Of a stretch of 35,021 nt of DNA, positions 6,122 to 10,883 are shown in pieces. Every line of letters starts with the position of its first letter. Positions within the stretch are counted from its first letter, which is position 1. The stretch is from Candidatus Omnitrophota bacterium. Lineage in GTDB: Bacteria; Omnitrophota; Gorgyraeia; Duberdicusellales; 4484-171. The notes beneath the pieces were generated by a model, which ran no database searches, was not told the origin of the DNA, and saw only the letters and a program-made list of their open reading frames with translations. The DNA lies in NCBI GenBank assembly GCA_021735405.1, contig JAIPHC010000004.1, forward strand, positions 1-35,021, written 5' to 3'. A program made the translations under genes and the position numbers.

Positions 6122-7120
6122 GTGTCTTCATCTAAAGTTACCATCAAAGAAGTAGCTAAAAGGGCCGGTGTTTCGATTGCCACTGTTTCCCGCTACATCA
6201 ACAAATCTCTCCATTTACGCGAAGAAAATCGTTCTAAAATCGAAAAAGCTATCAAGGAGCTTGATTACCGGCCTTTGGTTTATGCCCGCCGTTTAGCCGG
6301 AGGAAAGCTTAACACTTTTGGTTTAATCATTCCAGGCTATGAAGGTATATTTTATTCTTTTTACGCTTTAAAAATCATCAGAGAAGTGGCTGCGGCTTTG
6401 GACGAAAAAGAAATAGATATGCATCTTAATATTTACCGGGATAGAGATATTTTTAATTCGTCCTTGGTAGACGGGGTTATCATGGCAGATTTAATTTCCA
6501 ACAAAGATCAGCTTTTAAGGTTGAAAAAAGAAGGTGTCCCCGTTGTGGTAATAAACAGAAAGCTTTCCGATGAAAATATAAATTTTGTCGCAGTTGATAA
6601 CCATAAAGGCGCATATGAAGCTACCGAGTTTCTGATTAATCATGGACATAAAAAAATTGTTCATTTGGCCGGAGATACCGAGGTTCAATGCGCTCGCCAG
6701 AGAATAGACGGTTTTAAAGCAGCTTTAAAAAAGAATGGAATAAAAGAGAGGCCGAATTCTATTTGCTTAACGAATTTTTCCCGGGCTAAAGCCAGAGAGG
6801 AGCTTAATAAACTATTTTCTTCAAAAGAGTTTCCTACTGCTATTTTTTGCTGCAGTGATGAAGTGGCCAGTGAAGTTTTAAATTTTGCCGATGAAAATTC
6901 GATAGCAATTCCGGAACGGTTAAGCGTTATAGGCTTTGATGATAATCCTAACATTTCTTTCCAAAATATGATGTTAACTACTGTACGCCAGCCATTGGCC
7001 CAAATGGCTAAAGAAGCTGTTAAGATATTAAAACAAAATATCGATAAAGAAATATCCCCCCGGAAAGTTATTCTTGAGCCTAAGCTTGTTATTCGAGATA
7101 CAGTAGGCTTTCAAAAATAG
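6122..7120 (+). CDS. LacI/GalR-family transcriptional regulator
   Basis: 332 aa; N-terminal HTH VTIKEVAKRAGVSIATVSRYIN, hinge region YARRLAGGKLNTFGLIIP, periplasmic-binding-protein-like effector domain. GTG start. Confidence 0.93.
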   Translation: MSSSKVTIKEVAKRAGVSIATVSRYINKSLHLREENRSKIEKAIKELDYRPLVYARRLAGGKLNTFGLIIPGYEGIFYSFYALKIIREVAAALDEKEIDMHLNIYRDRDIFNSSLVDGVIMADLISNKDQLLRLKKEGVPVVVINRKLSDENINFVAVDNHKGAYEATEFLINHGHKKIVHLAGDTEVQCARQRIDGFKAALKKNGIKERPNSICLTNFSRAKAREELNKLFSSKEFPTAIFCCSDEVASEVLNFADENSIAIPERLSVIGFDDNPNISFQNMMLTTVRQPLAQMAKEAVKILKQNIDKEISPRKVILEPKLVIRDTVGFQK

Positions 7121-7149
7121 CTTAAAAAAAGGTTTTTTAAAAAAGATAT

Positions 7150-7197
7150 TTTCTATATGTTGTATAGTTTTTGCTAAAAATACACAATATTTGGTAT
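7150..7197 (+). promoter_or_regulatory. Tandem NrdR-box-like operators (7150-7165 TTTCTATATGTTGTAT; 7182-7197 ACACAATATTTGGTAT)
   Basis: Compared with the NrdR consensus ACACWATATATWGTGT: about 11/16 and 13/16 matches. Spaced 32 bp start to start (16 bp between boxes), the canonical tandem geometry, upstream of an RNR gene. Confidence 0.75.
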
Positions 7198-7202
7198 TTT
7201 TC

Positions 7203-7231
7203 TTGACACATTTTTATTTTTGTGATATAAA
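7203..7231 (+). promoter_or_regulatory. nrdJ promoter: TTGACA-17-TATAAA
   Basis: Exact TTGACA at 7203-7208 and TATAAA at 7226-7231 with 17-bp spacer. Confidence 0.7.
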
Positions 7232-7322
7232 GTTTTACCGTTTCAATCCATTCAACCAGGCAAAAAATCTTTAGTTCACTTAACAATATTTTTTAAATAA
7301 ATCAAACGTGGAGGAGGCAGTC

Positions 7323-10300
7323 ATGGATCAGAAGTTAGGTTTTTCTGAAAATGCTATCGTTGTCTTAAAGAGAAGATATTTGAGAAAAGATAACAAGGGC
7401 CGGATAGTTGAAAATCCTAAGCAGATGCTTGAACGTGTGGCTAAGGCTGTTGCGTCGGTTGAACAAAAATACGGAGTCAGCCGGGAAGAAGCCAGAGATG
7501 TAGAAAATGTTTTTTTTCAAGTTATGAAAAATTTAGAATTTATGCCTAATTCGCCTACTCTGATGAATGCGGGAAAAGAATTAGGGCAATTGTCTGCTTG
7601 TTTTGTCGTTCCGGTAGAGGATTCGATGGAGTCTATTTTTGACGCGATAAAATCGACTGCGCTTATTCATAAAACCGGCGGCGGCACCGGTTTTAGTTTT
7701 TCCCGGCTGCGCCCCCAAAGCAGTGTGGTAAAAACTACCGGAGGGGTGGCTTCAGGCCCGGTGTCTTTTATGAAAGTTTTTGATTCGGCGACGCAGGCGG
7801 TTAAGCAAGGCGGCACAAGGCGCGGCGCAAATATGGGAATTCTGCGGGTAGACCATCCTGATATTTTAAGTTTTATTGAATGTAAAGCTAACGACGGTGA
7901 TATATCTAATTTTAATATTTCAGTGGCAATCACCGACGACTTTATAGAAAAAGTTTTAGCCGGCCAAAAATATGATTTAATTAATCCTAAAAATAAAAAA
8001 GTGGTAGGAAGCCTGGACGCGGCCGAGGTGTTTAACCGGATAGCCGAATGCGCTTATAATAACGGAGAGCCGGGAATAGTATTTATAGATAAAATAAATA
8101 AAGATAATCCCACTCCAAACCTTGGGGAAGTCGAAAGCACCAACCCATGTGTTAGTGCAGATACCTTTGTATCTACAGAAAAGGGGCTTATGCGGATAAA
8201 AGATATCGCTAAAAAATATCCTAAAGGGGGGCTAAAGATTTTTGTAGATCAGTCTGTTTTAGATTTACAATATGGTGGCCTTGATGATAATGTGGCAGTT
8301 GAAACAAAAAGAAAGTGTAGTCTTTATGCCATTTCTAGGGCGTTTAAAACAGGAGTTAGAAATACTTATCGCATTACCACTGATTCGGGATATCAATTGA
8401 TAGCTACTCCCGATCACAAGATTATGACTAATCGTGGTTGGGTAGAAGTTAAAGATTTGAAAATAAACAAAGATATAATTTTTGTTCAACCTCAGGCAGG
8501 TGTATTTAATTCAGATTATCGTTTACCGTTTAAGGTAGAAAATACATATAAGGGGGAAAACGGCATTATTTATAAAACGAATTTACCTAATTGTTGGTCT
8601 AAAGAATTAAGCCAGGTTTTGGGTTATTTGATAGGTGACGGATGGTTGCGAGAAGGTGATAAAGATTGCCGGATTGGTCTTACTTTTGGAAAAAATGATA
8701 AAGAATTACTATTTTATTTTAAATCTGTGATGAATAATTTTTATGGGAAATCTATCCAAGAGATTAAGAGAGCAAATAAGGTTTGGCATCTTTCGTATCA
8801 TAGTAAATATTTTGTAGACTTTTTTAAAAAACTGGGCGTTGAACCTCAACTATCTGATAAAAAGAAAATTCCTAATAGTATTTTTACAGCTCCTAAAGAA
8901 ATAGTTATAGGGTTTCTTCAAGGTTTGTTTAGTGCCGATGGTACAGTAAGAGATAATTCTAAATCTAATAGCTCTTGGGTTGCTTTAAGCTCAAAAAGTA
9001 AAAGATTACTTTTGGATACTCAGTTATTGCTACTTCAGTTAAATATAAGAAGTAAAATTTTTGATCGTAGCAGACCACTTAGAAAAGGAATGTTTCCTTA
9101 TATAGATAAAAACGGAAAATTAAAATCATATCAATGTGACGGAAGATTGTATGAATTAGGAATATTCGGGGCGAGCCGAGAAAAATTTAGGAAATTTGTA
9201 GGTTTTTTAAATAGAAGTAAAATAGAAAAATTGGATAATGTACAATTTAAAAATTTCAGAAAAGAACGATTTATAGAAAAAATCAAAGAAGTTAAATTTA
9301 CTGGCAAAAAGGAAGTGTTTGATTTAACCGAGCCTTTTTCTCACTCTATGATTAATAATGGGTTAATAGTTCATCAATGCGGCGAACAACCTCTGCTTCC
9401 TTATGAAAGCTGTAACTTAGGCTCTATAAACCTGTATAAGATGCTTAAGAAAGACGGCCAGGGTTTTAAGGTCGATTGGGAGAAGCTTAAAAATATTGTC
9501 GGAATCAGCGTCCGGTTTTTAGATAATGTTATCGACGCTAACAAGTTTCCTTTGCCGCAAATTACTGAAAATACAAGAAAAACCAGAAAGGTCGGGTTAG
9601 GCATTATGGGATGGGCCACGATGCTTGGATTTTTAGAAATACCTTATGACAGCAAAGAAGCTATCGATTTAGCTAAAAAGTTGATGAGCTTTATCCAAAA
9701 AGAGGCTCAAAAAGTTTCTGTTGGATTAGCTAAAAAGAAAGGTGAATTCCCTACCTGGGAAGGCAGCCGGTGGCAGAAGGAAGGGGTAAGAATCAGGAAT
9801 GCCACTTTAACTACTATCGCTCCAACCGGAACGATAAGTATTATCAGCGGGCCTACTTCTTCGGGAATAGAACCTAATTTTTTCTTGTCCTATTTTCGTA
9901 ATGTTTTAGACGGGGAAAAATTGTTAGAGGTTGACCCCGCTTTTGAGTACTATGCGAAAAAGAAAGGATTTTATTCAAAAGAACTTATGAAAAAAATTGC
10001 ATCCGGTATGAGTATTCAAAAAATTGATGAAGTCCCGGATGAAGCTAAACGGATATTTAAAACGGCTATGGATATTTCTTCTTTTTGGCATATAAAAATG
10101 CAGGCCGCTTTTCAGGAATATACCGATAATGCTGTTTCTAAAACAATCAATCTTGCCTCTAGCGCCGAACTGGATGATGTAAAGGAGTCATACCTGCTGG
10201 CTTATAAGCTAAACTGCAAGGGGCTTACGGTCTATAGAGATGGGAGCAGGAGCGGGCAGGTTTTAACTATTAATAAAAAAGATGAAAAAGGAGAAAAAAA

Positions 10301-10883
10301 AGAACCGGGCCAGAAAAAGGAAGGATTTGTCCCTTATCCGAAACCTAGGCCGGAGGTGATTTTGGGTACGACAACTAAGGTTACCACAGGCTGCGGTAAT
10401 TTGTATATTACTCTCAATCAAGACGAAAACGGCCATTTTTTTGAAGTATTTACTCAAATGGGCAAAGCCGGCGGCTGCGCTGCTTCTCAGCTTGAAGCTG
10501 TGGGCCGGTTAGTTTCTCTTGCTTTGCGGGGAGGAATCGATATTAAAGTTATAGTGGAGCAGCTTAAAGGTATCAGGTGCCCTTCTCCTTCCTGGGATAA
10601 GGGGAAAAAGATATTTTCTTGTTCGGATGCTATTTCACGGGTGCTGGAGAAAAGGGCGGTAGACCAGAAAAGGAAAACTGAAGACGAAAAGAAAGAGGCA
10701 GATTTGCCTTCCCAGGAAGCCAGCTTGGTTGAATCGGGTAAAAGCAGCGAATCGGTGAAAAAAGAGATAAAATCAGCAGGGGTTTCGCATAATGTGGTGG
10801 GAGTTTGCCCGGACTGTGGTTTTGCCCTCCGGCATCAGGAAGGCTGCCTTCTTTGTGACGCTTGTGGTTATTCTAAATGTTAA
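7323..10883 (+). CDS. nrdJ: Adenosylcobalamin-dependent (class II) ribonucleoside-diphosphate reductase, interrupted in frame by an intein; start placed at ATG 7323
   Basis: MPNSPTLMNAG, GQLSACFVVPVEDSMESIFDA, TGGGTGFSFSRLRP, STNP[intein]CGEQPLLPYESCNLGSINL, TIAPTGTISIISG, C-terminal TSCPD-like domain and CPDCG...CDACGYSKC. SD GAGGAGG at 7311-7317 lies upstream of ATG 7323, so the ORF-track GTG at 7308 overlaps the RBS and is unlikely to be the start. Confidence 0.95.
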   Translation: MDQKLGFSENAIVVLKRRYLRKDNKGRIVENPKQMLERVAKAVASVEQKYGVSREEARDVENVFFQVMKNLEFMPNSPTLMNAGKELGQLSACFVVPVEDSMESIFDAIKSTALIHKTGGGTGFSFSRLRPQSSVVKTTGGVASGPVSFMKVFDSATQAVKQGGTRRGANMGILRVDHPDILSFIECKANDGDISNFNISVAITDDFIEKVLAGQKYDLINPKNKKVVGSLDAAEVFNRIAECAYNNGEPGIVFIDKINKDNPTPNLGEVESTNPCVSADTFVSTEKGLMRIKDIAKKYPKGGLKIFVDQSVLDLQYGGLDDNVAVETKRKCSLYAISRAFKTGVRNTYRITTDSGYQLIATPDHKIMTNRGWVEVKDLKINKDIIFVQPQAGVFNSDYRLPFKVENTYKGENGIIYKTNLPNCWSKELSQVLGYLIGDGWLREGDKDCRIGLTFGKNDKELLFYFKSVMNNFYGKSIQEIKRANKVWHLSYHSKYFVDFFKKLGVEPQLSDKKKIPNSIFTAPKEIVIGFLQGLFSADGTVRDNSKSNSSWVALSSKSKRLLLDTQLLLLQLNIRSKIFDRSRPLRKGMFPYIDKNGKLKSYQCDGRLYELGIFGASREKFRKFVGFLNRSKIEKLDNVQFKNFRKERFIEKIKEVKFTGKKEVFDLTEPFSHSMINNGLIVHQCGEQPLLPYESCNLGSINLYKMLKKDGQGFKVDWEKLKNIVGISVRFLDNVIDANKFPLPQITENTRKTRKVGLGIMGWATMLGFLEIPYDSKEAIDLAKKLMSFIQKEAQKVSVGLAKKKGEFPTWEGSRWQKEGVRIRNATLTTIAPTGTISIISGPTSSGIEPNFFLSYFRNVLDGEKLLEVDPAFEYYAKKKGFYSKELMKKIASGMSIQKIDEVPDEAKRIFKTAMDISSFWHIKMQAAFQEYTDNAVSKTINLASSAELDDVKESYLLAYKLNCKGLTVYRDGSRSGQVLTINKKDEKGEKKEPGQKKEGFVPYPKPRPEVILGTTTKVTTGCGNLYITLNQDENGHFFEVFTQMGKAGGCAASQLEAVGRLVSLALRGGIDIKVIVEQLKGIRCPSPSWDKGKKIFSCSDAISRVLEKRAVDQKRKTEDEKKEADLPSQEASLVESGKSSESVKKEIKSAGVSHNVVGVCPDCGFALRHQEGCLLCDACGYSKC
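8148..9377 (+). mobile_element. Intein with LAGLIDADG homing endonuclease, 410 aa, within NrdJ
   Basis: Starts with Cys (CVSADTFVSTEKGLMRIKDI), block B GYQLIATPDHKIM (TxxH), LAGLIDADG motifs LGYLIGDGW and LQGLFSADGT, block F/G EVFDLTEPFSHSMINNGLIVHQ followed by +1 Cys. Removal restores an uninterrupted NPCGEQ RNR motif. Confidence 0.95.

Follow-up and report, generated by a model that had tools for sequence, protein, structure and literature searches.

The nrdJ gene of this Omnitrophota genome very probably carries a mobile intein of class 1 that includes a LAGLIDADG homing endonuclease, as judged from sequence, at a widespread allele site of class II ribonucleotide reductases (RNRs), NP/C, where the slash, here and below, marks a splice junction. 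The window analyzed is a 35,021-nucleotide stretch of DNA from a Candidatus Omnitrophota bacterium. The intein is real, its site was already known, and it is mostly ordinary apart from its C-terminal Gln. That it interrupts the predicted radical cysteine is a consequence of the invariance and essentiality of the site, not evidence of regulation.

The intein and its host enzyme

The nrdJ open reading frame runs from an ATG at 7323 to 10883 and encodes 1186 amino acids (aa) with no internal stop. Its extein flanks match the NrdJ models PRK08665 (1155.6 bits; cut-off, 961) and TIGR02504 (718.6; cut-off, 400), and because these family profiles score above their cut-offs, the host is identified as the class II, adenosylcobalamin-dependent RNR NrdJ. 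Residues 276-685 match Pfam Intein_splicing (1.7e-16 when alone) and LAGLIDADG_3 (8e-20), as well as NCBIfam intein_Nterm (3e-12). The preliminary description had placed an intein at 8148-9377 and a spliced product of 776 aa. Relatives with an empty site, three of the four other genomes of the genus among them, fix exactly these boundaries, and the length follows (1186 - 410 = 776). The features are as follows.

7323..8147, + strand: N-extein of NrdJ, 275 aa, ending in ...VESTNP (NrdJ family models, 1xje alignment)
8148..9377, + strand: intein, 410 aa, Cys1 to Gln410, residues 276-685 (Pfam, NCBIfam and PDB matches, empty-site relatives, predicted Hint and LAGLIDADG fold)
8148..8186, + strand: splicing block A with the nucleophile Cys1 (8148-8150), shared by all 126 inteins aligned at the site
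8388..8429, + strand: splicing block B (TxxH) with Thr87 (8406-8408) and His90 (8415-8417), both present in 126 of 126
8619..8642, + strand: LAGLIDADG motif 1 with acidic Asp164 (Asp in 120 of 126)
8913..8942, + strand: LAGLIDADG motif 2 with acidic Asp264 (Asp in 118 of 126)
9312..9356, + strand: splicing block F with Asp392 at F:4 (in 119 of 126) and His399, which is kept in the window intein
9357..9377, + strand: splicing block G, NGLIVHQ, with penultimate His409 and an atypical C-terminal Gln410 (direct reading, relatives)
9378..9380, + strand: host Cys, the +1 splicing nucleophile and predicted thiyl-radical Cys (1xje alignment; NXCXE motif, PMC9669993)
9378..10883, + strand: C-extein of NrdJ, 501 aa plus stop, with a TSCPD domain and a C-terminal Cys-rich tail (open reading frame, family models)

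The window intein has the sequence features of class 1: Cys1, TxxH, an Asp at F:4 (Asp392, not the Cys of class 3), a penultimate His, Gln410 as an accepted variant, and Cys at +1. Both LAGLIDADG aspartates (D164 and D264) are kept. An AlphaFold model of the intein built with 22 homologues has a pLDDT of 90.9 and a pTM of 0.90, and the top PDB matches of the predicted fold are endonuclease-bearing inteins, namely, 7qsu (E=1e-22) and PI-PfuI, 1dq3 (E=1e-18), the latter presumably the RNR intein of P. furiosus.

The insertion separates NP from C in the finger-loop sequence NPCGE (NP/CGE), and joining NP to CGE gives the NPCXE loop seen in empty alleles and in 1xje. The junction Cys had been proposed, by homology, to be the radical cysteine. 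This assignment is upheld: when aligned to Thermotoga maritima NrdJ (PDB 1xje), the junction Cys falls on residue 322, the Cys of the NPCGE sequence in that enzyme. An NXCXE sequence around the catalytic Cys is common to class O, I, and II RNRs, the finger-loop Cys is the thiyl-radical site, and NPCXE occurs in 3,175 of 3,347 class II sequences (PMC9669993). The related proposal that the enzyme is inactive before splicing also stands, as an unspliced chain cannot form an intact finger loop.

Occupancy of the site and related systems

A survey of the site does not support the view that the placement of the intein is special. Hundreds of genomes, as well as phages, have an intein there, and congeners with nearly the same NrdJ hold different ones. 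In a study of native intein sites, the mean distance to active-site residues was 8.3 A, while other C/S/T sites averaged 21.1 A, and blocking of the host was argued to select for splicing (PMC3359363). Given this published trend and a site that is much used, the placement is expected.

Within the genus, represented by five genomes in our set, all three states of the allele are found. Besides the window genome, three genomes have an exactly empty site, and one (G004) has an intein of another lineage. The NrdJ flanks of the window and of G004 (L006) are 97.1% identical over 380 aa, while their inteins, at the identical position, are 32% identical. The best explanation is two independent invasions in one genus, or replacement. 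The site is empty in many relatives. The intein nearest to that of the window is 57% identical to it, and in its lineage, intein identity stays at about 50 to 57% across bacterial and archaeal hosts whose own identity drops from 72% to 46%, a pattern that movement of inteins between hosts would produce.

A search of 384 genomes of the phylum, with six aligned inteins as the query, found site-specific relatives in 27. Three more Omnitrophota inteins (L059, L060, and L061), which fall outside that count, occupy the sequence SNP/CSEY in another RNR variant, where the insertion again falls at the radical Cys of NXCXE. A scan of genome_contigs (GTDB genomes) gave 373 confirmed relatives, and the best 80 of these 373 include Omnitrophota, Bacillota, Actinomycetota, Chloroflexota, Heimdallarchaeota, Woesearchaeota, and others. 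The alignment-based scan of viral_contigs found 96 confirmed stretches; a viral_contigs scan with the single window-intein protein found no relative.

Several known systems resemble this one. The Pyrococcus-type RIR1 (NrdJ) model PRK08332 aligns with the window protein in one unbroken extein-intein-extein match (query 122-996 to model 701-1577), which places its intein at the same NP/C site, although its host is archaeal and the model, at 1684 positions, has room for more than one intein. Inteins in Thermoanaerobacterium and Tepidanaerobacter NrdJ (L064, L065, L071, and L103) share the site and a VHQ end and are about 50% identical to the window intein, but their hosts are Bacillota. The bnrdE intein of phage SPbeta (NC_001884; SNL/CVTGE...VTGN/CSE) sits at the equivalent NXCXE Cys, yet it differs in its class Ib host and in its Gly-Asn end, and its identity to the window intein is about 24%; it is annotated as putative and, as cited in PMC3653736, was published in 1998. 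Like the window intein, the CIV RNR and P. abyssi Pol II inteins are Gln-ending members of class 1, and they splice (PMC4031507). Finally, the Aquifex aeolicus R2 intein is likewise an RNR intein that splits catalytic residues, although these are metal ligands of the R2 subunit instead of the radical Cys (PMC8772380).

Terminal residues of inteins at the RNR site

The window intein ends in GLIVHQ/C, with His-Gln instead of the usual His-Asn, a feature absent from the preliminary description. Gln, Asp, and Glu endings remain within class 1 (PMC4031507), and Gln-ending inteins are able to splice, slowly in the case of Pol II and well in the case of CIV RNR (PMC4031507; PMC8175363). Conserved Gln-ending relatives occur in several phyla.

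To place this ending in context, 162 inteins at the site, repeats included, were extracted. The last residue is N in 42, D in 22, and Q in 14 of the unique genome_contigs rows, and N in 32, Q in 6, G in 3, and D in 1 of the unique viral rows, counts that reflect the search patterns and should not be read as natural frequencies. On a tree of 126 inteins, for which the last eight residues were left out, a minimum of 16 changes in the terminal residue is needed, compared with 40 to 49 in shuffles. The terminal residue is heritable but labile at the RNR site.

The ending covaries with the assisting histidines. None of the 24 Asp-ending or 3 Gly-ending inteins has a block-F His or a penultimate His, while the block-F His is kept in 20 of 23 Gln-ending inteins; the Gln form in the window has both. 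A tie between the Asp ending and loss of the block-F His is suggestive, given the few independent contrasts (4.8 with and 0 against, of 7; median p of 0.06). The 24 unique Asp-ending inteins (L003, L004, L035-L037, L041, L043, L070, L076-L084, and others) end in SLD/C, SVD/C, or SRD/C. The Chy intein reportedly has an Asp end too.

Three diverged inteins on viral contigs (L172:574-1674, L182:4558-5640, and L186:2395-3483) end in Gly at the same NP/C site, with the junction YVSRG/CGEQ or IVSRG/CGEQ and an Asp at the expected position of the block-F His. Compared with the first of the three, the identities are 39 to 49%, and Cys1, TxxH, and the F:4 Asp are retained, so the Gly does not stem from a single error. 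Our literature search for inteins with a C-terminal Gly found no report on point. In other phage inteins at the site (L181, L188, L192, L198, L207, and L213, on viral contigs), F:4 is a Cys (VYCFTEP or similar), as in class 3, yet Cys1 is kept.

Because the Asp and Gly forms lack both assisting histidines, their release may not need His-assisted amide cyclization, and Gly cannot cyclize at all, which places that step in doubt for Gly-ending inteins. We tentatively suggest that C-terminal release chemistry at the RNR site could have switched many times, that release in the Asp and Gly forms may bypass His-assisted amide cyclization, and that the Gln form of the window may be one step in this history; we consider this possible, though not the likelier outcome.

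Persistence of the intein and the question of a splicing switch

The intact residues of the intein point to a conventional course of splicing, in which Cys1 would attack the carbonyl of Pro-1, the acyl group would pass to host Cys+1, cyclization of Gln410 would free the intein, and an S-N shift would restore an ordinary NPCGE loop. The endonuclease would presumably cut intein-free nrdJ across a highly conserved run of codons, leading to copying of the intein. Imprecise loss of the intein would kill the enzyme, and failed splicing would be selected against. On this mechanism, the intein would persist at the site because the site is invariant and essential.

A Pro at -1 is often unfavorable for splicing. 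Together with the slow splicing of the Gln-ending Pol II inteins (PMC4031507, PMC8175363), this residue suggests that splicing in the window could be slow or incomplete.

The preliminary description further proposed that dNTP supply is tied to protein splicing. In a conditional switch of this kind, splicing would be restrained under some redox or temperature state. The proposal draws on the interrupted finger loop, since a precursor of this kind must be inactive, and on published cases: conditional splicing is known for DnaB (PMC6195587), and Gln-ending Pol II inteins need heat and disulfide reduction (PMC8175363). It also draws on the standing of NrdJ in the cell. Searches of the genome turned up neither a class I small-subunit gene nor one for a class III RNR, so NrdJ may be, and probably is, its only RNR; as the assembly is 77% complete, another RNR might be absent from it.

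Comparison within the genus weighs against such control. Three congeners lack the intein, and in the fourth an unrelated one interrupts a near-identical NrdJ, so any regulation by splicing has not been kept along with the gene. Position -3 is not a Cys, and the internal cysteines are not conserved: C57, C149, and C330 are rare, and C174, found in 33 of 62 near relatives, belongs to the endonuclease part. Among the aligned inteins at the site, we found no conserved regulatory Cys or other sensor residue. A redox switch acting through extra cysteines is rejected, because such cysteines are not conserved in this alignment.

Two putative NrdR boxes are found upstream of nrdJ.

7150..7165, + strand: putative NrdR box 1 (TTTCTATATGTTGTAT), 3 mismatches to an NrdR-box-like pattern, weak alone
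7182..7197, + strand: putative NrdR box 2 (ACACAATATTTGGTAT), 1 mismatch to the pattern

The boxes are 32 bp apart. Matches to the pattern across the whole window were as numerous by chance in 16 of 100 shuffles, and so the case for the boxes rests on their position and on relatives, several of which have paired NrdR-like boxes before nrdJ, with the same or a similar box 2 whether or not an intein is present. The genome also has an ATP-cone (NrdR-type) gene of 163 aa, the size of NrdR. A sigma-70 scan of 7100-7330 gave no site at threshold. The putative boxes would serve nrdJ with or without the intein. Considering this, the loss or exchange of the intein in congeners, and the lack of a sensor residue among the aligned inteins, we do not uphold the proposed coupling of dNTP supply to splicing, and a conditional switch is highly unlikely.

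Two further readings are less probable still. One is that the intein has decayed and no longer splices, leaving nrdJ as a pseudogene or yielding only cleaved halves, as the atypical C-terminal Gln and the Pro at -1 might indicate. Nevertheless, the frame is fully open, every catalytic residue is kept, the host NrdJ shares 97% identity over 380 aa with its counterpart in a congener and is the probable sole RNR, and several phyla have conserved relatives with a Gln end. Least probable of all is that the intein aids maturation of its host. This idea has a precedent in another RNR subunit, the Aquifex R2 protein, where an intein between metal ligands is reported to raise iron loading (PMC8772380). 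An intein is absent from most relatives, however. Moreover, the finger loop of class II NrdJ is not known to hold a metal site that would need loading. A mobile intein that persists at an invariant and essential site remains the preferred reading.

Nothing in this finding demonstrates that splicing controls dNTP supply. Instead, one genus with empty, occupied, and differently occupied alleles offers a clean case of intein persistence at catalytic residues, and the Asn, Gln, Asp, and Gly endings at one host junction provide a natural series on how the last intein bond breaks.
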